Positions 246 to 14,575 of a DNA stretch of 25,608 nucleotides are shown here, one piece after another. The stretch is from assembly GCA_031273385.1 (NCBI GenBank), contig JAISRY010000137.1, positions 1 to 25,608 of the forward strand, in the 5' to 3' direction. Position 1 is the first letter of the stretch; every line of letters starts with the position of its first letter. The position numbers and the translations under genes were made by a program. The notes beneath the pieces were generated by a model. It had not been told where the DNA came from and did not search any database. It was given only the letters and a program-made list of their open reading frames with translations. This DNA comes from Tannerellaceae bacterium. Its GTDB lineage: Bacteria > Bacteroidota > Bacteroidia > Bacteroidales > Tannerellaceae.

Positions 246-337
246 AGGATGATAAGATCGTTCCTGCGCCGGACTAAGAGATGAGTAACGAAGAACTCAT
301 ACTTTGTTCGTAAACAACTATTGTTCAGGTCGGCACA

Positions 338-437
338 AACTAATGGTTTCACAGCTGTGAGGCGATCTCTTCACAGCTGTGATCCGATCGCCCAACAGCT
401 GTGAAGCGATCGCCTCACAGCTGTGAAACCATTAGTT
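338..437. repeat. 100-bp palindrome made of 22-bp units (array A)
   Basis: CAGCTGTGA starts at 352, 374, 396 and 418, an exact 22-bp period. Between these lie CGATCT (363) and CGATCG (385, 407), so two-fold symmetric hexamers sit every 11 bp. The outer arms 338-360 and 415-437 are perfect reverse complements (23 bp). The inner arms 361-387 and 388-414 pair at 22 of 27 positions. The dyad of the whole element is at 387.5. Weaker inverted similarity extends outwards to about 329 and 448. Confidence 0.9.
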
Positions 438-516
438 GTTCCCGACCTATTCATTAGTTCCTCCCGATGTAATCATTAGTCCCTCGTTATGTAATCATTA
501 GTTTCTACCGAGCAAA
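430..516. repeat. 22-bp-period CATTAGT direct repeats
   Basis: CATTAGT starts at 430, 452, 474 and 496, exactly 22 bp apart. ATGTAATCATTAGT occurs twice (467-480 and 489-502). This continues the 22-bp rhythm of the palindromic array just upstream, but the repeats are direct, not palindromic. No open frame of note crosses them. Confidence 0.8.
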
Positions 517-2066: not shown

Positions 2067-5000
2067 TTATTGGGTGAGGGAGAAGCGGATGGTGATGCCG
2101 TAGCTGGAGTTGGTGGTGGGGTAGGCGTTGCTGGAGACTAAGGGCTGGTTGATTTGGAGGTCGTAGAATGCGCGGAGGGTTAGGGAGCGGCTTAGGCCGT
2201 ATTCGGCGGAGAACTGGATGACTTTGGCCTGGTTGCCGCTGGTGGCTTGGGTGAGGTTGTCGGATATTTTGCGGATCAGGGACTGCATTTTCTTGTAGGA
2301 ATAATCCAGTTTGACGGTCAGGTCGTTGCTGAAATCACGGCTTTTCTTCATTTTCAGTATCTTGTTGAACTCGGCGTAGGTGTATCCGACGCCGACTTTG
2401 TATTCGTCGGAGACGGCTTCGATGATCTGGTAGGAGGAGATGTTGAGGTTCAGGGTGCGGGTCGTCCGGTAGTCGGCCTGCAGCGTGATGTTGTTCAGGA
2501 GGGTTCCCTCGACGCCGAACAGCGGGGTGAATCCCTCGATGATGCTCACCGTCCCGATGACGTAGGGCGAAGAGGGCAGGATGTCGTTGGTCTGTTTGTC
2601 GAGCGTAAAGCCCAGGCCGTTACCGGCGCTGACCCAGTCGAGCGACGAGTTGTAGCTTCCCACCGAATAGGAGCCGCGGTATTGGTGGCTCAGGACGACG
2701 CTTTTGAAGTACTTCTTTATGCCCGGCAAGCGCACCAGTCCGTCGTAGGTGATGCGCCAGTTCGGTAGCAGGCTGGCGAGCGAGGGAAAGGGCGAGAGTG
2801 TGATGCTCTTTGCGCTTCTCCCGGTATAGGCCGCCAGGAATGCGGGGATCAGCACATCCGTCGCGTTCTCTTTGACGCCGCCATTGAGGGGGCTGTAGGG
2901 TTGGCCGGCGAACGAGGTGCCGGCGAAGAATCCGGTCTGTGGATAGGAGGTGCCGGCGTAGGCGTTTTCCAGGCGTTCGGCGATGATTTTCCGGTTGTTC
3001 AGAAAGGTCTCGAACGTGGGGGAGGCGTAGCCGTTCTGGGCATTGCCGATGCCTTTGAACGATGTCCCGAGGGCGATCGTCGTCATGGTAAAGGTGCCGC
3101 CGTAGATCTCGGGACGTCCTTTGTACATGTATTGAACGGTGGTGTTGCGGGTATCGACGCGGTCTACGTTGAGGTTGATCTTCAGCCCTGCGGCAGGCTC
3201 AAGGAACATGGTTGCTTTCAGGTTCTTGGCGCTGTTGATGATGGCGGGGTTGATGTTGTTGCTATTCATGACGAGGTGGTCCCTTGCGATCAGCTTGTCG
3301 ATATAGCTCCGGTTGGTGGCGCCGAAAGCGAACCCCAGGCCGGGCGTCAGTCCGCCGGTAGAGCGCCCTTGCCCGAACATATCGCCGATTTCGGGGCGGA
3401 ACCCGGGGATCATCATCCCGTCGGTCAGCGTGTATTGGATCCCCATCTGGCGGATCATCATCAGGAAACGGGCGCCATATTCGGCCGTTTGGTAGAGGAA
3501 GTTCTCCGAAAGGGGCGGCTTGGGGTAGACGGTGACGTTGAGCTTTGCGGTGTCGCGGTTCAGGATGCGGATCTGCGTATCGTCGACGGCTTTGAACTTG
3601 ACGGTATAACGCTTGCCGCCGGCGCCTTTTGCGGTGACGAGCAGCCGTTTCGTTTTCAGGTCATGCTTGAGAAAGGTTGCGCTGTCGGGGCTGAGCTGAA
3701 CCTCTTTCTCGACTTTCTTCTGCCGGTTCCTGTCCGCTGCGGTTTGGGGGAGTCCGGTGCGGTTACGGGTTGCCGGTGCGGTGCGTGTGGAGCCGGAGAA
3801 TTTCTGGTTGACGGAGCGCAGGAATTTGCTTTTGTTGTAGAGGTTGACCAGGCCGAAATTGGCCTGTATTCCCTCTTCGCGGTGGTTGCGGATGATGTTT
3901 CCCAGCTCGGTATTGGTGTCGATGATGGCGCCGCGATCCCAGTTGTAGGTGGCGTTGTAGGTGATGCCGGTGGTCATCCAGTCGAGCCCGGGCAGGCGTT
4001 GGAACGGCACGTTCCAGGTTACTTTCAGCGACTGGTCGTATTTCATGGGCGTCCCCAGATCGGCGATGCTTTGCCGGATGGAGTCTTTCCATACCTGGTA
4101 TTGGTCGGGGTTTAGGCGTTTGTTGACCTGTACGTGCGGCTCTTCGATGCGGGCGTTGGTGCCGGAGGTGAACGTGGCTTTCAGGTCGTTGGTGAAGTTC
4201 CAGGAGAGGGAGAACGCCCTGTCCCAATAGAAGTTCTGGCTGAAAGAGACGGGCAGGTTGTTGCTTCCCGTCGTGTTGTTGAGGTCGCGCAGCTGTATCT
4301 CGTAGTAGTTCCTGACGAGGGATGTCTGGAAGGTGATGGTTGCCGGCAGGTAGCTAATGCTCAACTGCTTGAGGTAATTGTTGTTTTGCTTTAGCTTCTC
4401 GAACGGGCGGAGCGGCTTGGCGTATGGCGTATAGGTGTAGCCGAAATTGGCGCGGTAGTCTTTGGTCGTCTCGTACTCGGTATCGGGCTTGTTGCGCTGG
4501 CTTTCGCTGTAGGAATAGCCGAGCGAGAAGTTGGCGGGATCGTAGGGCATCGGGTTCTTGCTGCGTATGTCGACTTTGACGTTGTTGAGGGCGATGCTTT
4601 TGGTGTTTGTCCGTTCGCGGGCGAAGTTGAGGATGGAGTCCCTTTCGCTTTTCGTGGCTACGGCATCCAACGCCTCCTTGAGCTTGACGTCCTGATCGAG
4701 GGGATTGTATTTCGGGTCGATGACCTCTTTCGAGTAGGCATAGTAGAGGGGGATACTGACGTTGGTTTTGGCGGGGAAGAATTTGCCCAGCTCGACGGAG
4801 GTGGCGACGCTGTATTGCGTGTAGTCGTCGAGGCGGCGTTGGTTGAGCGTCTGATCCAGCCCGCCGAAACCGGCCGTCTCGATGCGCCCTGCCAGGTTGA
4901 CCGTTCCGAGGTCGGAGAGGGCGATGTTGAGGCTTCCGTTGGCCGCCCATCCGCCCGATTCGTTGAAGTCGGAGATGCGCAATTCGTTGATCCATACTTC

Positions 5001-8000
5001 GGCGCTTTTGAGGCTGTTGGAGTTGTTGCGTATCCCGATCATGATCACCTTTACTTCCGCCAGGCTGGGGTTGCCTACTACGGTGACGGTATTGCGGGTA
5101 TTGTCGGGATCGTATTCCGAATAGGGCGTCTGGTAGGTGACGCCGCCTACGCCCTCGCTCTTTGCACGGTTGCGGCGGAGCTTGAGGCCGGTCAGCGTTT
5201 CGAGGCGGAAGTCCAGCAGGTTGTTCCTTGGCCAGACGGCCTCCTGGTCGCCGGCGTTGTTGGTGTTGTAGGTGTTGCTGTGGGGGGTAAGGGCGAGCGG
5301 GACTTCATACTCGTAATAGTTGTTTTTATAGTCGGAGCCTAAGCGGATAAAGACCGACAGCTCGTCGTTGCGGAGGTCTGTCACGTCGTTGATAAGCGCT
5401 TCGGCATGTGTAAAGAGTTGCATCCGCTTGTATTGGCGGAAGTCGTAGAATGTATTCTTATAGACCGCCCGTGCATCCTGCGAGGCGAGGTTGGTGATCT
5501 TCATGGAGAGCGCCTGCTCGTTCTGTTTCGTGATCTGTGGCTGCCCGGGGTCGATCATGCGCGTGATGCCCGGCGGCAAGACATAGTTGACGGGCTGGCG
5601 GTCGCCGTTCTCTTCGATATTGACGGTCGAGACGTCCAGCGTCCCGTTGATCGCGGGGGCTGTCCCTCTCCTGGCGAGGTCTTGCCCATAGCTGCGCCAC
5701 TCTCCCCGCACCAGTTTGAACGTCCCGAAACGGAGGATGGTCGTGTCGCGGAATCCGGTCATATAGAGCCGCATGAAACGGATGGTCTTAAAGTCGCGGA
5801 TAGACCCGACGGCCCGGGTATACTCCTTTACCGGCACCTTGAACTGATACCATGTGACGCTCTCCTCCCCGGAGTTTTCCAACCGCACGGTGGCCGTGCG
5901 TTCGTTGACGATGTAGTTCATCCCCACGTTCATGCTGTCGGGGTGGAGCCGTATCCTGTATTGGAAATATTTCTCGTTCTCGTTCATCGTATTGTCCTGG
6001 TTGAGGTCTTCGACGTCGGGGACGGAGCGGGAGGAGCCGTTGTACTGCTCGTTGGTGTCGTTGGAGCGGGAGTTTCCCTCGGTGCCGTTGTAGCGCTTGT
6101 AGCGGTCGAGGATGGAGGTCTCTTCGCGGTCGAAAAGGGAGTTGCGGTAGTGCATGAAATCATCGGCGGAGGGGTCGGCGGAGATGCGCTGGTAGGCGTC
6201 GGGCGTTAGCCGGCCTTGCAGCTGTTGGAGGTAGGCGGCATGGTGCGTTTGTTCGTCGGCGGAGGATAACCCGTCCAGCCCGACGTCCTGCACTTCGCGG
6301 GCACCCGCCGAATTGTCGAACGCATAGACCGTACTCTGCTGGCGGGGAACCCTCCCCCAAACCGTCTGTTCCACCTTGGCCGTATCGCCGTCGATCGGCA
6401 GGCCGTTCTCGTAGAACTTCTTTTCGTCTTTCAGGATATCTTCCGATACCTCCCCGAGGTTGAAGTAGAGGTATCCTCCCTCCGACTGGGGCTTATAGAT
6501 ATAGGGATCCAGCATCCAGAACTCAATGTACTCGATGTTGGAGGCTTCGAAGTCCGTCTGATCCAGCTTACGCATCATGCCTCCCCACCGCTTCTGTGGC
6601 TCCCTCAGCCACCCCTCTTCATCCAGCTCGTCGGCGATCAGGTTGTAGGGGCCGCGTTCGTTGGGGTAGTAGGCGACGTTCAGTACGGGGAGAATATTGT
6701 TTTCGTTATAGCCCAATTGCCGGTTGGGGAAGAGTTCGTCCGAGCGGACGGAGCGCACGTAATGGTTGGATAGCTGCTCCCTGTCCCTTTTCAGGTAGGA
6801 GGGCATGAGGGAGGAGTTGGTGCGCGTAAACATCCCGTCGATATAATACCAGGCGAGCAGGGCGCGGTTCTTCCCGTAGGTGAGGTCGTTGACCGCCCGG
6901 GCTTCGTCGAACGCCTCGTAGGGGGTGCTGGCCAGGTTCCAGGGGTAGGGCTGGAGCAGGTCGATACCGCTTTGCGTCGATTCGAAATCGTCGAGGTAGG
7001 AATAGCCGCCGGTATATTTGTTCTCGTAATGGCCGGCGATCAGGTGGGCGAACTCGGCGTTGAACGAGATCTGGCTGGGCTTGGTGAGGGTGAGCAGCGG
7101 GAGCTTGTCGACGAGGTTGGTCAGCCACTGGCTTTCGCCCTTGTAGGCGGTGTTGACGCCCCATAGCGTATTACGGATGGACTCGTCGCCAAAGGCCGTT
7201 TTCGTCGTCAGCGGCATCTCGGACAGGTGCATCAGCGTACCGCCCAAGAGGAAGTCCTTGCTGAACTGGTATTGCAGGTCAACACCCATCATCGTTTTGC
7301 GCTGCATGCTGTACATGCTCTGATTCTCGAGGCTGACGCTGATTTGCGAGCCGCTGAGGTTTTCGTTCAGGATCGTCACCGTGCCGGAGGTATAATCCAC
7401 CGTATAATCCACATTCTCGGTCAGCAATACGCCGCCGGCCATCACCCTGACGGAGCCACGCGCGACGTTGCTGGCTTCGAGCTGTATCTCCGATCCGGAG
7501 GAGGCCTTGTATTCGCCCCGGAGGATAAACTTATTCTTTTCGGCGATCTGGCGGGCGACGGTAAGGGTCGAGTCGTACAGCTCCTGGTAGACGTATTTGT
7601 CGGCGATATTGTCGTTTCCTATCTTCTTGCGCAGGTAGGAGCCGAAGGGTTCGACGGAAGGGAAGATGATCCGCCCGTTTTCGGGCAGCGCCGTTACGCC
7701 CTGCACGAAATCGAAGAAGCCGTCGGGATAGGGGTTATCCCTGGCGTCCAGCCGGTCGAGGTTCATCACGCGCAGCAGGATAAGGCCGTTCACGTCGCCC
7801 TCCTGGAGGTAGTTCAAATAGATACCGGTCGTATCGCTCTGGTAGAGGATATCCAAGCGGAATTTCTCTTTCTGCACGGAATAGGCGTCTAAGGAATAGA
7901 CATTCTTCATCATCAGGTTCCAGTACATCATGTCGGGCGACAGGGTGGTGCCTTTCAGCAGCTTGACGAACAGGCTGGCGGCGGTGTTCTCTACATTGTC

Positions 8001-9488
8001 GGTCGAAAACTCGCCCACCTGGTAGGCCATCCCGCCCACCTGGTAATCAAACGCGACGGCCAGCACCTCGTCCGGCTGTAGCTGCGTCCGGAGCGAAATG
8101 TATCCCAACTGCTTATTGACGGTATATTCCGCTTCGCTCAGCCGGCGGGCGCTCTCGATCTTCTCGTATTCCCGTCCGCCCTCCATCGGGACGGTAGCCA
8201 ATACCTGGTTGACGCGGCTGATCTCCCTCGCTTCGGGGAAATTTGTCCGTATATCGTTGTGCAGGGTGTTCGCCCCGTTGTGCGGAAAATCGTTCGTGCC
8301 GGAGGGCTGGAAACGGCTGTTGCCGATATGCCGCGGATCGTGTTCCGCCAGGTCGGTAAAGGCGACGATATTGCGCGCCTCGCCGAAGTTGCTGCGTTTG
8401 TTGGTGACCCAGACCTCCACGCGGTTGATGCTGATCGGGGAGCGGATGAAAGAGAGTTGTTCGACAAACTCGTCGTAATGGTCGCGGAAGTAATGGCTGA
8501 GGAAGAAGTGGCGGTTCTCGTCGTACCTATCTACCGTAATCTCGAACGGCTTGGTCTGTACCCCTCCTTTGGAATTGACGGTTTTGGATTCCGATTCCTG
8601 CTGTGCCAGGAGGGCGTTGACCCGCAGTTTCCCGAACTGCATATCGGTCTTTACGCCGAACAGCGCCGCGCCGCCGTTGATCAGGGAGTTGCCGGTCATC
8701 ATGCTGACGTTGCCGGCCTCTATGCTTTTGATGATCTCGTCCTCTTCGCCCGAATAGGCGAGGTTCAGTTTCTTGGAGTCGAAGTCGAACGAGGTTTCGG
8801 TATTGTAGTTCATCCCGAAGTTGAGCTTGCTGCCTACGCTGGCTTTGACATTGAGCTGCACCTTTTCGTCGAAGTTGAAATAGGTACGGCTGCGCGAACG
8901 TTCGGGCAGGGAGGGGTTGTTGGTCGTATTGGTTTTCAGTCCGAGCGTGATCTCCGCCGACCCTTGGGTTTGCAGGCGGACGCCTCCCTTTCCGAAGATC
9001 TTCTCGGCGGCGCCCAGGTCAAACTGGAGGTCGGAGAGGTTGAAGCGGTTCTTCTCTTCGTTCTGAAATTCCTCGTCGTTTTTCTTCCTGAAATAGGAGT
9101 GCAACGATTGCCGCAGGCTATAATCCCGGTACTCTTCGGGCGTGAGCGATAGCGGGACGGATACCTCCATATCGCCGACCTTTGTCCGCACGATATACAT
9201 CCCCGAGCGGTTGTCGTACTCGATGGCGGTCTTGACGTTCTCCGGATCACGCAGGTCGGCGGGAGGCTGTTTCAGCAGCTCTTCGTAATCTTCCGGTATG
9301 GTCTTGGCGACGGGATAGCGGGGCGGCGGGAGGGTATCTTCCGGAGCGGCGGCTTCCGGCAGGCTATAGTGCAGGGCGCCCTCCGGCGGTGAGGCCGATG
9401 AGGAGAGGTAGCCGGCATGGAGGCTGAATAGCCCAAACGCCGACAAACATACGGTTAATGGGATGAGGTATGTCTGTTTTTTTTTCAT
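2067..9488 (-). CDS. sprA: T9SS outer-membrane translocon protein SprA/Sov
   Basis: At 2473 residues it has the size expected for SprA (gliding Flavobacteriia) or Sov (Porphyromonas), the very large beta-barrel through which T9SS substrates cross the outer membrane. An N-terminal signal peptide ([20 protein letters not shown]) is followed by long stretches of alternating polar and hydrophobic residues typical of a giant barrel. The chain ends in a beta-strand-like segment (YGITIRFSLTQ). Its ATG overlaps the ruvA stop codon by one base (TAATG), which implies translational coupling. A run of nine A follows the ATG directly. A ruvA-sprA neighbourhood is, as I recall, found in other Bacteroidetes. 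Long open frames on the opposite strand are shadows of its GC-rich codons. Confidence 0.95.
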   Translation of the reverse strand: MKKKQTYLIPLTVCLSAFGLFSLHAGYLSSSASPPEGALHYSLPEAAAPEDTLPPPRYPVAKTIPEDYEELLKQPPADLRDPENVKTAIEYDNRSGMYIVRTKVGDMEVSVPLSLTPEEYRDYSLRQSLHSYFRKKNDEEFQNEEKNRFNLSDLQFDLGAAEKIFGKGGVRLQTQGSAEITLGLKTNTTNNPSLPERSRSRTYFNFDEKVQLNVKASVGSKLNFGMNYNTETSFDFDSKKLNLAYSGEEDEIIKSIEAGNVSMMTGNSLINGGAALFGVKTDMQFGKLRVNALLAQQESESKTVNSKGGVQTKPFEITVDRYDENRHFFLSHYFRDHYDEFVEQLSFIRSPISINRVEVWVTNKRSNFGEARNIVAFTDLAEHDPRHIGNSRFQPSGTNDFPHNGANTLHNDIRTNFPEAREISRVNQVLATVPMEGGREYEKIESARRLSEAEYTVNKQLGYISLRTQLQPDEVLAVAFDYQVGGMAYQVGEFSTDNVENTAASLFVKLLKGTTLSPDMMYWNLMMKNVYSLDAYSVQKEKFRLDILYQSDTTGIYLNYLQEGDVNGLILLRVMNLDRLDARDNPYPDGFFDFVQGVTALPENGRIIFPSVEPFGSYLRKKIGNDNIADKYVYQELYDSTLTVARQIAEKNKFILRGEYKASSGSEIQLEASNVARGSVRVMAGGVLLTENVDYTVDYTSGTVTILNENLSGSQISVSLENQSMYSMQRKTMMGVDLQYQFSKDFLLGGTLMHLSEMPLTTKTAFGDESIRNTLWGVNTAYKGESQWLTNLVDKLPLLTLTKPSQISFNAEFAHLIAGHYENKYTGGYSYLDDFESTQSGIDLLQPYPWNLASTPYEAFDEARAVNDLTYGKNRALLAWYYIDGMFTRTNSSLMPSYLKRDREQLSNHYVRSVRSDELFPNRQLGYNENNILPVLNVAYYPNERGPYNLIADELDEEGWLREPQKRWGGMMRKLDQTDFEASNIEYIEFWMLDPYIYKPQSEGGYLYFNLGEVSEDILKDEKKFYENGLPIDGDTAKVEQTVWGRVPRQQSTVYAFDNSAGAREVQDVGLDGLSSADEQTHHAAYLQQLQGRLTPDAYQRISADPSADDFMHYRNSLFDREETSILDRYKRYNGTEGNSRSNDTNEQYNGSSRSVPDVEDLNQDNTMNENEKYFQYRIRLHPDSMNVGMNYIVNERTATVRLENSGEESVTWYQFKVPVKEYTRAVGSIRDFKTIRFMRLYMTGFRDTTILRFGTFKLVRGEWRSYGQDLARRGTAPAINGTLDVSTVNIEENGDRQPVNYVLPPGITRMIDPGQPQITKQNEQALSMKITNLASQDARAVYKNTFYDFRQYKRMQLFTHAEALINDVTDLRNDELSVFIRLGSDYKNNYYEYEVPLALTPHSNTYNTNNAGDQEAVWPRNNLLDFRLETLTGLKLRRNRAKSEGVGGVTYQTPYSEYDPDNTRNTVTVVGNPSLAEVKVIMIGIRNNSNSLKSAEVWINELRISDFNESGGWAANGSLNIALSDLGTVNLAGRIETAGFGGLDQTLNQRRLDDYTQYSVATSVELGKFFPAKTNVSIPLYYAYSKEVIDPKYNPLDQDVKLKEALDAVATKSERDSILNFARERTNTKSIALNNVKVDIRSKNPMPYDPANFSLGYSYSESQRNKPDTEYETTKDYRANFGYTYTPYAKPLRPFEKLKQNNNYLKQLSISYLPATITFQTSLVRNYYEIQLRDLNNTTGSNNLPVSFSQNFYWDRAFSLSWNFTNDLKATFTSGTNARIEEPHVQVNKRLNPDQYQVWKDSIRQSIADLGTPMKYDQSLKVTWNVPFQRLPGLDWMTTGITYNATYNWDRGAIIDTNTELGNIIRNHREEGIQANFGLVNLYNKSKFLRSVNQKFSGSTRTAPATRNRTGLPQTAADRNRQKKVEKEVQLSPDSATFLKHDLKTKRLLVTAKGAGGKRYTVKFKAVDDTQIRILNRDTAKLNVTVYPKPPLSENFLYQTAEYGARFLMMIRQMGIQYTLTDGMMIPGFRPEIGDMFGQGRSTGGLTPGLGFAFGATNRSYIDKLIARDHLVMNSNNINPAIINSAKNLKATMFLEPAAGLKINLNVDRVDTRNTTVQYMYKGRPEIYGGTFTMTTIALGTSFKGIGNAQNGYASPTFETFLNNRKIIAERLENAYAGTSYPQTGFFAGTSFAGQPYSPLNGGVKENATDVLIPAFLAAYTGRSAKSITLSPFPSLASLLPNWRITYDGLVRLPGIKKYFKSVVLSHQYRGSYSVGSYNSSLDWVSAGNGLGFTLDKQTNDILPSSPYVIGTVSIIEGFTPLFGVEGTLLNNITLQADYRTTRTLNLNISSYQIIEAVSDEYKVGVGYTYAEFNKILKMKKSRDFSNDLTVKLDYSYKKMQSLIRKISDNLTQATSGNQAKVIQFSAEYGLSRSLTLRAFYDLQINQPLVSSNAYPTTNSSYGITIRFSLTQ

Positions 9489-10148: not shown

Positions 10149-11765
<1,617 letters not shown>

Positions 11766-11797
11766 TTATACCTATTCAAATTACTATAAAGAAAATG

Positions 11798-11805
11798 CAA
11801 AGGTA
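11798..11805 (-). promoter_or_regulatory. -7 promoter box upstream of the ABC-F gene
   Basis: The minus strand reads TACCTTTG here, an exact match to the Bacteroidetes -7 element TAnnTTTG. It lies 36 bp before the ATG and predicts a leader of roughly 28-30 nt. No convincing TTTG is seen 19-21 bp further upstream. Confidence 0.5.
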
Positions 11806-11818
11806 CGAAATTTCCCGT

Positions 11819-11847
11819 CAGAATCAGGATTTTCAGGATTATAGAAT
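11819..11847 (-). repeat. Inverted copy of the 31-bp tandem unit
   Basis: Read on the minus strand this is ATTCTATAATCCTG followed by AAAATCCTGATTCTG, close to the unit repeated at 13058-13138. The pair therefore brackets the 1.3-kb repeat island in opposite orientations. Confidence 0.6.
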
Positions 11848-12047
11848 TTTCAGAATGGCGGAGGCTTCGACAAGCTCAGCCACCGAGTCGTATTTTCGAG
11901 ATATCAAGGTGTTTCGCCCGATGATGAATAGGCTGTTAAATAATTGGAAATGGCCCCTAAGCCCACGATAGACGAACGGGCAGCCTACGACCGGTACAGC
12001 AAGAAAATACCTTTTTAAATCCCATTGTTGGGCATCCTTCATAAATT

Positions 12048-12082
12048 ATCCGGAGCAAGGAAACATGCTCCGGATTTTTTTT
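12048..12082 (+). terminator. Strong intrinsic terminator, plus strand
   Basis: A perfect 10-bp stem ATCCGGAGCA (12048-12057) / TGCTCCGGAT (12066-12075) with loop AGGAAACA runs directly into eight T. No plus-strand gene is recognisable between the divergent ABC-F start and this site. The only plus-strand frame of note is a 22-codon one at 11950-12018 (begins MAPKPTIDERAAYDR). Confidence 0.8.
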
Positions 12083-12090
12083 GCCCTTTC

Positions 12091-12189
12091 TGGTCATTTT
12101 GTGGTCATTTCATGGTCGTTGTGGTCATTTCGTGGTCATTTCGTGGTCATTGTGGTCATTGTGGTCATTTCGTGGTCATTTCGTGGTCA
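12091..12189 (+). repeat. TGGTCA tandem array, ten copies
   Basis: TGGTC(A/G) starts at 12091, 12102, 12113, 12122, 12133, 12144, 12153, 12162, 12173 and 12184, always 9 or 11 bases apart. Because neither spacing is a multiple of three and the unit contains no stop, all three plus frames stay open across it. This explains the overlapping Trp/Gly/His-rich frames there. Confidence 0.9.
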
Positions 12190-12377
12190 TCTGTTTTTCT
12201 CCCAATCCCCGTTTTCAGCCCAAAAAGGGGCAAAAAAGTGGAGTAAAAAGGCAAAAAGTGGAGAGGAAAAAAGGGCTTCCACACTTGAAATTAGCGAAAA
12301 AAACGAGTTTCCGGAGAACGGGAAATGACAGCCTAACGAAACCATAAAAAACACGCAATCAGCCCTTTCTACTCTAC

Positions 12378-12422
12378 TTACTCTCTTTCTTCCTTTCTTT
12401 AGAGAAGAGAAGAAGAGAGTAA
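12378..12422. repeat. Pyrimidine/purine hairpin
   Basis: TTACTCTCTTTCTTC... (from 12378) faces ...GAAGAAGAGAGTAA (to 12422), an imperfect stem of about 20 bp with strict pyrimidine/purine strand asymmetry. No U-tract follows. Confidence 0.55.
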
Positions 12423-12431
12423 TAAGTTGGA

Positions 12432-12537
12432 AAGTGGGGAGAAAAAGCGAAAAATGAAAACCTTAGAAAAAAAACAGAAAAGCCCAAAAAGTCTATATAG
12501 AGTTAAACATGCGTTTTTACCCCCCTTCTCCCCACTT
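12432..12537. repeat. 12-bp inverted repeat around an A-rich segment
   Basis: AAGTGGGGAGAA (12432-12443) and TTCTCCCCACTT (12526-12537) are exact reverse complements 82 bp apart. The intervening DNA is A-rich and has no usable frame. Confidence 0.5.
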
Positions 12538-12551
12538 GATGCTGCGGTAGA

Positions 12552-12661
12552 CAATTGTGTAGCGGGAGCTACCCAGTTGTGTTGTCGGGGCTACCCAGTT
12601 GTGTAGCGGGGACAACACAACTGTGTAGCGCCGACGGGACAGTTGTGTAGCCGCCGTCGTC
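12552..12661. repeat. 22-bp-phased palindromic array (array B)
   Basis: CA(A/G)(T/C)TGTG occurs at 12552, 12574, 12596, 12618 and 12640, exactly 22 bp apart (CAATTGTG, CAGTTGTG twice, CAACTGTG, CAGTTGTG). Smaller dyads such as GTAG...CTAC centred on 12565.5 lie 11 bp from the CANNTG centres. The array as a whole is an imperfect palindrome centred on 12609.5: positions 12563-12609 pair with 12610-12656 at most positions. The plan matches array A at 338-437, with different filler sequence. Confidence 0.85.
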
Positions 12662-12685
12662 AAGGTTCGACACACACAACCGTAG

Positions 12686-12814
12686 GGGCAGACCTGCGTG
12701 TCTGCCCCTATCCATCGAACAATGACGGGCACAATGACCCACAATGACGGACACAATGACCCACAATGACGGACACAATGACCCACAATGACGGGCAGAC
12801 ACGCAGGTCTGCCC
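12686..12814. repeat. ACAATGAC array between inverted hairpin copies (array C)
   Basis: GGGCAGAC...GTCTGCCC forms a hairpin with a 6-base loop at 12686-12707, and its exact reverse complement lies at 12793-12814. Between them ACAATGAC starts at 12719, 12731, 12741, 12753, 12763, 12775 and 12785, with spacings alternating 12 and 10. The composite period is again 22 bp. The open frames crossing this on the minus strand are low-complexity products of the repeat. Confidence 0.9.
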
Positions 12815-12862
12815 TACCCACAATAACGACGAATCATAATCACCTGAAAATCAAATAGTATT

Positions 12863-13036
12863 CGTCATTGCGAACGCAGTGAAGCAATCCAGGAGTGCGA
12901 CACACAGACGCACCTCTGGATTGCTTCACTGCGTTCGCAATGACGGGTACTACTTGATTATAATCGGCTGTAAATCACGCAATCGCCGTCATTTCCTTTT
13001 TTGATAAACGCAGTTTATTGGGTACTCGCAATGACG
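12863..13036. repeat. Compound palindromic repeat, copy 2
   Basis: The inner hairpin has arms 12863-12899 and 12909-12945 around ACACACAGA, with a single mismatch. Its outer end (CGTCATTTCC...TTTATTGGGTA, 12987-13023) matches the right arm of copy 1 and, inverted, the left arm of copy 1. The left outer arm is absent here, so this copy is shorter. It ends in a further GCAATGACG at 13028-13036. Confidence 0.85.
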
Positions 13037-13057
13037 GATACCAGTTTAATTCTGTAA

Positions 13058-13138
13058 ATTCTATAATCCTGTAAATTCTGATTCAGACATTCTATAATCC
13101 TGTAAATTCTGATTTAGACATTCTATGATTCAGACAGT
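13058..13138 (+). repeat. 31-bp tandem repeat, 2.6 copies
   Basis: ATTCTATAATCCTGTAAATT starts at 13058 and 13089, and a shortened ATTCTATGATTCAGACAG starts at 13120, each 31 bp on. It sits directly downstream (3') of the minus-strand isomerase-family gene. Confidence 0.75.
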
Positions 13139-13144
13139 TATATA

Positions 13145-14575
13145 TCAGCAGATCCTGACGACGGGGATGTGCAGCAGGAAAGCCAGTTTCTCTATTTTGT
13201 GGGCTAAATGGCCTACGCCGATGGCACAGTGGTGGGAGGGGCCGGCTTTGCTCCAGTTGTCCATGAATTTGCGGGCGCCGCAGGAAAAGCGGTAGCGGCT
13301 GTTGGTGTTACCGATTTGCAGGACAGGGCCGGCGACAGATTCACCCTCGGCAACAAGAAAGAAGACCCCCTCGCGGTTTTCACAGACCGAAAGCAGCGTC
13401 ACTTTGCCGTGTTTCACCGTCATCTGGATCGAAAGGCCGTTGCCCGGCTTGCCATGGTAGACGGGTAGGGGCGTCATTTTGACCTTTTCCTCCGCAATGG
13501 CGAAATGAGCAGGCCCGTCATGCCCCAGCATCACAATGTCGTCGGTAAAGTCCATCGCATAAAATTCGGAAAATGAACCGCCTGCCCCGAATCCGGCCAT
13601 AATTTTCATCGCCTGTGCGTTTTTCACTTCACATTCTCCCGCAATGGGGATCTGTTTCCCTGTCAGCAACGTGTTTCCGGGAATAATCGAGGTGACGATG
13701 TTTTCGTAGTCATTCCCGCTTTCCCCCTCATAGTAATAGGCCATCGAGCCTAAACGGTGCCGCGCTACCAGCTTGTCCAAAGCGACCGAAGTCAGCGCTG
13801 CCCTCCTGATCTGATGCGGCTCACACGCGGGGACGACGTCAAATGTTTCGTGAAACTCCCTTATCTTGGCCTGTACCTCCTCTTCCGTCGCCTCGTCGCG
13901 CAACTTTTTGAGTTCGCACATCTCCAACAGCTCGATATGCGTACCGAAAACGGCCGATTGCTGCGTAAGGTCGGTATACACATCCAGCATACCGCAATAG
14001 TAATGCCCTAAAATTCCCAGGCGGTTATTGTTCATGATCGCTTTCACCCGTGCGGCATCCGTCCACCCCTCGATTTCGCTCCAGGCCGTTTCGTCTTTCA
14101 GATAACCGGTGACAAAATCATACCTCAACCCGCTTCTGTTAAACACATTCGCAATCTCGGGCACTGAACAGGCCTGGCAATGGGCAAGCCAGTAACCGGT
14201 CATCTTACCGCTGTCGCCCAAATGGTTGATATAGTCATAATCAATGGCAGGGACAGGCTGTAAATTCAATACAATGACCGGACAATTGAGATGCTGAGCC
14301 ACGGGCAAAATGGTAGACGACAGGGAGTAAGTGGCTACATAGAGATAGACCAGGTTCACCTCTTCGCGGGCAAACAACGACGCCGCCTCGACCGCTTTCT
14401 CCGGATTATCCACCATACCCGCATCAACGACCTGCACGTTGCAACGCCCCTCAATACCATCCCTGATCTCCGCCTGATAGCGTTTCAACGAATCCAACAA
14501 CCCCTCAAACTGCCCCCAATACGTATCCAACCCGGTACCAAACAGCCCTACCTTAAAGGCTTTTTCTATTTTCAT
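13145..14575 (-). CDS. L-arabinose/L-fucose isomerase family protein
   Basis: From the ATG at 14575 the protein has 476 residues and begins MKIEKAFKVGLFGTGLD, the usual start of this family. A longer frame begins at TTG 14641 and adds 22 unlikely residues. The fold is that of AraA/FucI-type aldose-ketose isomerases. Candidate metal or catalytic residues are Glu314 (GECE), Glu337 (SFSEFY), His352 or His357 (GHDGPAH) and His448/449 (PSHH). Their spacing is close to the Glu306-Glu333-His350-His450 set I recall for E. coli AraA. The true substrate cannot be told from sequence; many Bacteroidetes members of this branch are annotated only by family. No kinase, epimerase or sugar transporter adjoins it, so it looks like a single-gene unit. 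Confidence 0.88.
   Translation of the reverse strand: MKIEKAFKVGLFGTGLDTYWGQFEGLLDSLKRYQAEIRDGIEGRCNVQVVDAGMVDNPEKAVEAASLFAREEVNLVYLYVATYSLSSTILPVAQHLNCPVIVLNLQPVPAIDYDYINHLGDSGKMTGYWLAHCQACSVPEIANVFNRSGLRYDFVTGYLKDETAWSEIEGWTDAARVKAIMNNNRLGILGHYYCGMLDVYTDLTQQSAVFGTHIELLEMCELKKLRDEATEEEVQAKIREFHETFDVVPACEPHQIRRAALTSVALDKLVARHRLGSMAYYYEGESGNDYENIVTSIIPGNTLLTGKQIPIAGECEVKNAQAMKIMAGFGAGGSFSEFYAMDFTDDIVMLGHDGPAHFAIAEEKVKMTPLPVYHGKPGNGLSIQMTVKHGKVTLLSVCENREGVFFLVAEGESVAGPVLQIGNTNSRYRFSCGARKFMDNWSKAGPSHHCAIGVGHLAHKIEKLAFLLHIPVVRIC

Follow-up and report, generated by a model that had tools for sequence, protein, structure and literature searches.

Array B, a block of five 22-bp units at 12544..12653, is best read as the conserved terminal module of an intergenic repeat that is dispersed through the genome and carries phased dimer sites for a putative protein reader, a reading to which we assign a probability slightly above one half (about 0.55). 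The window, that is, the whole stretch of 25,608 nucleotides that was analysed, is contig 150 of the source genome (G000; 2.3 Mb, 251 contigs, 70% complete). The dispersed-repeat part of this reading rests on many copies at unrelated loci, mostly with no shared neighbour family, and on an empty site in the examined congeners. The DNA-geometry part rests on the nearly fixed number of sites, the 22-bp step and the lack of covariation between paired positions.

The initial annotation had described five CA(A/G)(T/C)TGTG cores at an exact 22-bp step within 12552..12661. The results showed cores starting at 12552, 12574, 12596, 12618 and 12640, every step being 22 bp. The whole window contained eight core pairs at 22 bp, four in array B and four in a second array, A, versus none in 100 dinucleotide shuffles, so the description was borne out. 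The array does lie at the place described, but its natural block is 12544-12653, with no strand, consisting of five 22-bp units centred on dyads between 12554/12555, 12576/12577, 12598/12599, 12620/12621 and 12642/12643, and BLAST finds copies of this block in the genome. The proposed overall dyad at 12609.5 is present (arms 12563-12604/12615-12656, 76% complementary), together with a second and longer dyad at 12598.5, on core 3 (arms 12548-12597/12600-12649, 74% complementary). The fillers are unlike one another even inside this single array.

Further members were then counted in the source genome. A search for CARYTGTG-N14-CARYTGTG gave 78 hits on one strand and 77 on the other, where the reversed pattern had no hit on either; of the 155 places, about 100 are among the matches listed. 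BLAST of the 110-bp block returned at least 62 matches at no fewer than 40 distinct places (the best 40 of 63 candidates). These 40 places and seven found by the pattern search alone make at least 47 TAGC-type arrays, with GTGTAG flanks; the genome-wide scan proposed earlier thus does recover further members, here and in other Tannerellaceae. Bacterial tandem repeats commonly change their unit number. Five cores were present in 38 of the 43 arrays uncut by contig ends. The first 35 arrays (33 from the source genome and 2 from G013) comprised 29 with five units, two with six, one with four and three with two, two of the last three sitting at contig ends. Fourteen held-out arrays, unused in framing the five-unit rule, gave ten with five units, two with six and two cut by contig ends. 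The copies are kin by descent, so core and unit counts are not independent.

The spacing was kept strictly. Among 131 neighbouring core distances of up to 60 bp at the array loci of the source genome, 120 were 22 bp, the others being 15, 25, 27, 37 (twice), 44 (three times), 46, 51 and 57; distances of 20, 21, 23 and 24 bp never occurred. The held-out arrays gave 22 bp in 52 of 54 distances, neither of the exceptions (60 and 87) being a multiple of this step. Other Tannerellaceae yielded 76 distances of 22, one of 21 and one of 23 plus scattered values, and G040 yielded 78 at 22, seven at 44 and no others; the phase slips in one G020 array. Mean whole-array mismatch was 14% within type I and 23% within type II. 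Gap openings per 100 mismatches, counted with one aligner, were 15.5 in the leader, 4.6 in type I arrays and 6.1 in type II arrays, where the arrays were all 110 nt and all array pairs were kept; on the leader side, copy L052, whose leader has 66 nt, and the 3 pairs out of 55 that exceeded 35% mismatch were set aside. Because the phase is kept while the fillers diverge, and no 20-, 21-, 23- or 24-bp distance occurs at the array loci of the source genome, the earlier suggestion of selection on geometry is supported, and the phase is likely under constraint. Homologous recombination, shuffling units between copies, could also keep the phase.

Alignment of the 33 source-genome arrays and two G013 arrays gave a unit made up of GCTACACA-RY-TGTGTAGC and some four free bases. 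In the profile (173 units, 6 of them from the type III array L048), information peaked between positions -6 and +8 relative to the dyad and was low between units, so that a centre of about 14 bp is kept and the fillers are freer. The 143 perfect TAGC-type cores comprised 59 CAATTG, 58 CAGTTG, 26 CAACTG and no CAGCTG, against 10.5 CAGCTG expected (p 2e-7 if independent, ignoring shared descent); L048, which carries three CAGCTG cores, was excluded from these counts. The held-out arrays contained 27 CAATTG, 9 CAGTTG, 12 CAACTG and again no CAGCTG. The TAGC-type core thus seems to require at least one A/T-type half, and this avoidance is subfamily-specific because type III arrays use CAGCTG. In G040, 87 of 90 junctions between units joined one TTTTT half-word to one other word; three had no TTTTT and none had two. 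The arrays of that genome (L223-L261) draw on a small vocabulary of 11-bp half-words, the partners of TTTTT being CTTTA, GCTTT, CAGTT, CTGTT and the like.

A longer repeat of mosaic build, which starts upstream of 12087, has array B as its 3' end. The type I element runs, on the + strand, through a terminator-like hairpin, an 11-nt minisatellite, an A-rich leader and the array. A 22-aa open frame, MAPKPTIDERAAYDRYSKKIPF (11950..12018), tentatively marks its 5' edge; in C196, C25 and C66 a frame of 26-29 aa beginning ATGGTACGCG replaces it, and similarity among these copies starts there. The hairpin, TCCGGAGC..GCTCCGGA followed by T8 (12049..12082), is common to several copies. The minisatellite (12087..12190) consists of units of about 11 nt, TTTCGTGGTCA, and most element copies carry another unit at the matching place. 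Comparison of this place in C57, C132, C157, C108, C61, C2, C196, C66 and C184 showed that the unit differs between most copies and is internally similar, with GTGGTCATTTC, ATGTTCCTTTT, GTGCACCTTTC, AAGTGTCTTCT and others, C196 and C66 being alike and C108 and C157 alike; it looks as if the minisatellite were rewritten copy by copy. The leader (12210..12543) ends at the first core and holds a pyrimidine/purine inverted repeat at about 12365-12434, read from the sequence. In the source genome it had 18 matches, which fall into about 13 copies, 97-69% identical, and outside that genome it was found only in G013 (70 genomes including its own; best 10 candidates per genome). Copying, which had been offered as the alternative to selection on geometry, therefore also happens.

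The same array, which as a rule has five units, is carried by both type I and type II elements. Type II is without the leader and mostly has AGCTCCCG-type repeats next; its outermost units are mirror-imaged (ACAATAGTGTAG / CTACACTATTGT) in L039 and L047, with one of the two changes in several more. Array A (286..511, no strand) belongs to type III, of which the genome has at least two arrays of CAGCTGTGA type, array A itself and one on C120 (L048). Its four CAGCTGTG cores (352-425) start at 352, 374, 396 and 418 in a 22-bp-phased inverted repeat with 95-nt arms (286-380/395-489), and 22-bp repeats with the core CATTAGTT extend it in the same phase over 430-511. The match claimed between arrays A and B holds for core and step; the two belong to different subfamilies, and their kinship is confined to core and step.

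Other features of the window were also recorded. An ORF of 2473 aa at 2067-9488 presumably encodes a SprA/Sov-type gliding/secretion protein. Another 22-bp-period tandem repeat, ACAATGACGGACACAATGACCC, lies at 12719-12794 (3.5 copies, 98%), near an exact 22-nt inverted repeat at 12686-12707/12793-12814. A 31-bp tandem duplication, ATTCTATAATCCTGTAAATTCTGATTCAGAC, occupies 13058-13126 and has an inverted copy at 11817-11856. A second dispersed repeat with the hairpin CGTCATTGCGAACGCAGTGAAGCAATCC is found near both arrays, at 12822-13037 and 73-241, and looks like a CGTC-tagged REP as described in the accessible part of PMC3733652.

The long imperfect inverted repeats raise the alternative that the arrays are hairpin elements, working as RNA or cruciform stem-loops (terminator, mRNA stabiliser or structured RNA) whose symmetry is held by pairing; stem-loops are also predicted for the BrickBuilt repeat in the available part of PMC4596501. 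We compared pairing within 29 five-unit arrays with pairing after the 3' arms had been swapped between copies. The two were equal for three structures: 0.771 vs 0.781 for the between-core hairpins, 0.712 vs 0.711 for the core-3 hairpin and 0.751 vs 0.752 for the 12609.5 hairpin. A per-pair count on 12 of these arrays gave 75.7% paired vs 76.6%, and one pair was changed on both sides vs 3.0 in shuffles. The compensatory change across the dyad that had been anticipated was therefore not borne out, within-copy pairing being no better than pairing between copies. In many G040 units the two halves differ, a TATA-type half adjoining an ACAG-type one, and one filler occurs in opposite orientations in different copies. 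Since within-copy pairing is no better and halves are often unlike, the symmetry resides in the consensus, as in dimer sites, and not in pairwise repair. Selection for a hairpin was rejected on the arm swapping and pair counts. Rfam gave no match at gathering score in nine array loci of several genomes, nor in 11700-13200 of the window, where weak microRNA-precursor matches and one snoRNA match below that score were taken as chance; membership in a known RNA family was rejected on this basis. Taken with these results, the hairpin reading is very unlikely.

To return to the phased protein sites, we asked how far core and step extend beyond the source genome. The pattern matched 25 of 71 Tannerellaceae genomes and was absent from 46; G025 and G035, among the 25, also matched the reversed control, G035 about equally, and are weak witnesses. 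Two of the 47 other genomes in the same search (G093 and G099) gave single matches. Elsewhere in the order, 8 of 388 genomes matched vs 2 of 388 for the reversed control; G093 and G099 are among these eight, G234 and G406 proved on inspection to hold real arrays, G338 has an 11-bp step, and the remaining five, G093 and G099 included, are known as match lines. The matches in G338 come mostly from an 11-bp-period repeat, CAATTGTGATT, with a similar core differently arranged. Outside the order, 4 of 389 genomes matched, about the reversed-control rate there (3). The pattern was drawn from the source genome and misses arrays with other cores: in G040 it found 1 place, whereas BLAST found about 40 (85 matches merged to 40 loci). 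Across 39 of these loci, L248 being left out as no array was placed in it, 19 arrays had three cores, 16 had four and four had two. In other genera the fillers are again different and arrays of three or four cores prevail, with up to seven cores in G020; in some of these arrays inverted flanks run on in 22-bp phase. The core is kept across genera and the remainder is not. The type I element had no match in plasmid or phage records, and none of 29 viral contig stretches with a 15-mer of the unit had a second core in phase; a phage or plasmid origin was rejected on these grounds.

We also compared the arrays with known repeats. The nearest known design, as far as the accessible part of PMC4596501 describes it, is the BrickBuilt MITE of Porphyromonas gingivalis, reported from P. 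gingivalis and P. gulae, with 19 dispersed intergenic copies of a 23-nt unit in 1-22.8 units. Both are intergenic, dispersed and modular, with a tandem unit of similar length and a flanking leader or tail. They differ in unit number (a 22-bp unit, five in 38 of the 43 uncut arrays, versus 1-22.8 units of 23 nt), in their ends (the IS5-like ends GAGACCTTTGCA given there had no match within 2 mismatches in the window) and in range (core and step in several genera of the family versus two species in that account). The leader-plus-repeat modularity and intergenic dispersal would fit a plain minisatellite of a BrickBuilt-like MITE, with phase and number owed to recent descent only; the nearly fixed unit number, set against 1-22.8 in the part of that paper available, and a core that is kept across genera when the rest is not make this explanation unlikely.

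GTAG- and CGTC-tagged REPs (PMC3733652) and BIMEs (PMC2817692), in the parts of these papers available, are likewise short intergenic palindromes in many copies, and BIMEs alternate in orientation at regular spacing. GTAG REPs as described there carry the tag at one end of a 20-40-bp palindrome; in a typical TAGC-type unit of the arrays, GTAG has an internal position. It is missing from the arrays of G015 (3/3), G020 (2/2) and G027 (2/3) and is present in most G021 arrays and in all four G029 arrays. The RAYT domain PF01797 (Y1_Tnp) was found in 6 of 18 array-bearing versus 6 of 12 other genomes, and was not found in G000 (70% complete), G027 and G040, among others. Its absence from 12 of the 18 led us to reject RAYT mobilisation for most carriers. 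No binding protein or transposase was found, and no signal of a target-site duplication, the mark expected of a DDE-type MITE, appeared in 4608 offset/length combinations over 35 G040 copies, a test confined to that genome, with its four two-unit arrays left out, the 5' edge in the source genome being unsure. Iteron arrays of plasmid origins, such as the 22-bp iterons of R6K, are likewise direct repeats about two turns apart, in a small fixed number beside AT-rich DNA; unlike them, the present arrays occur in dozens of dispersed copies, and the type I element had no plasmid or phage match. Iteron origins also adjoin a replication initiator gene; most of the arrays had no shared neighbour family by BLAST clustering. 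The best reading is that the arrays belong with MITE/REP-like repeats. We found no published account of them in a literature searched mostly without subscription journals, which agrees, within that literature, with the earlier hint at an undescribed family.

The genomic context was examined in the source genome and its relatives. One flanking protein is 94% identical to that of the Tannerellaceae MAG Kf353_bin119 and 74-76% identical to those in three 'Tannerella sp.' MAGs; the isolate codes suggest termite guts as sources. G013 is probably Kf353_bin119, as the stretches fetched from them have identical ends. At the array B locus no synteny was seen with L059, the closest of the named MAGs. 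The ABC-F gene beside array B was found in 7 of the 10 congeners searched; the stretches fetched upstream of it in these seven (in G013, about 220 nt to the contig end) contained no phased TAGC-like core pair. None of the congeners examined has an array at the array B site. The congener pairs G034/G040 and G027/G036 have arrays in common but not flanks. The gene on one flank of a G040 array recurs in G021 and G034, in neither case with an adjoining array, and the other flank is not syntenic. At about 1290-1390 of L219 (G034) are AAAGGATATTTTTCC..GGAAAAATAACCTTTAT, which look like the outer arms of the G040-type element with no core between them.

SusC-type and ECF sigma-factor families are common in such genomes. 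In a mixed set, 147 mechanically called flanking ORFs clustered by BLAST into only 13 pairs, and a recurrent neighbour gene, suspected from ORF lengths of about 430 aa, was rejected. In G040, the 133 flanking ORFs yielded a cluster of four that was the array itself translated, a cluster of four SusC-type receptors and a cluster of three ECF sigma factors, seven recurrent neighbours having been scanned against Pfam; SusC-type receptor genes are near 4 of the 39 loci and ECF sigma-factor genes near 3. The mixed set of 55 arrays comprised 17 in tandem, 9 in convergent and 9 in divergent gene contexts, with 20 undecided, and G040 had 23 tandem, 2 convergent and 14 divergent. The 14 divergent versus 2 convergent gaps and the SusC and ECF neighbours may point to a regulatory role. 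That each array regulates its neighbouring genes through one family-wide regulator is nevertheless quite improbable: dimer-like sites in phase, the avoidance of convergent gaps in G040 (2/39) and the proximity of some arrays to SusC-type or ECF sigma genes speak for it, but most copies have no common neighbour family, contexts in the mixed set are varied, the array is closer to the preceding stop than to the next start in 15 of the 23 G040 tandem gaps, and the stretches upstream of ABC-F in the seven congeners have no array.

Nucleoid-occlusion proteins bind dispersed palindromic sites, and the arrays might by comparison be nucleoid or segregation sites peculiar to the family. Two genomes with about 40-50 arrays each would suit such a role, as would the placement of all eight arrays found in G027 (one contig) within 47% of the circle (P 0.04). 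Against it, copy number is very uneven (about 40 in G040 against 8 found in G027), the origin and terminus were not firmly placed by GC-skew sampling, 46 of 71 family genomes are without a pair having this core, and the sites turn over; we give a chromosome-organising function of this kind little credence.

For the reading that we prefer, a phased set of protein sites at the end of a dispersed repeat, the following mechanism is proposed. Each palindrome of about 18 bp, GCTACACA-RY-TGTGTAGC, would be bound by a protein dimer, and the 22-bp step, close to two helical turns, would align the dimers along a single side of the helix, where the set may form one cooperative complex. One-face dimer binding would be the simplest reader of symmetric cores about two turns apart. 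Such a complex could let the repeat be copied, the array then being the end at which a non-autonomous mobile element is bound; alternatively, it could be the reason why the cell tolerates the repeat.

That number and helical phase are kept while the intervening sequence drifts suggests a protein that reads geometry. The core and step could serve as bait for this putative protein, and with about 40 copies in G040 and at least 47 in G000 there is material enough for functional tests. More tentatively, and possible rather than probable in our judgement, the arrays may constitute a family-wide, hitherto undescribed class of nucleoprotein platform, in which a conserved Tannerellaceae protein would recognise a near-fixed number of dimer sites at a 22-bp step through CARYTG while species-specific fillers turn over, and which, copied around the chromosome, may organise or mark it.
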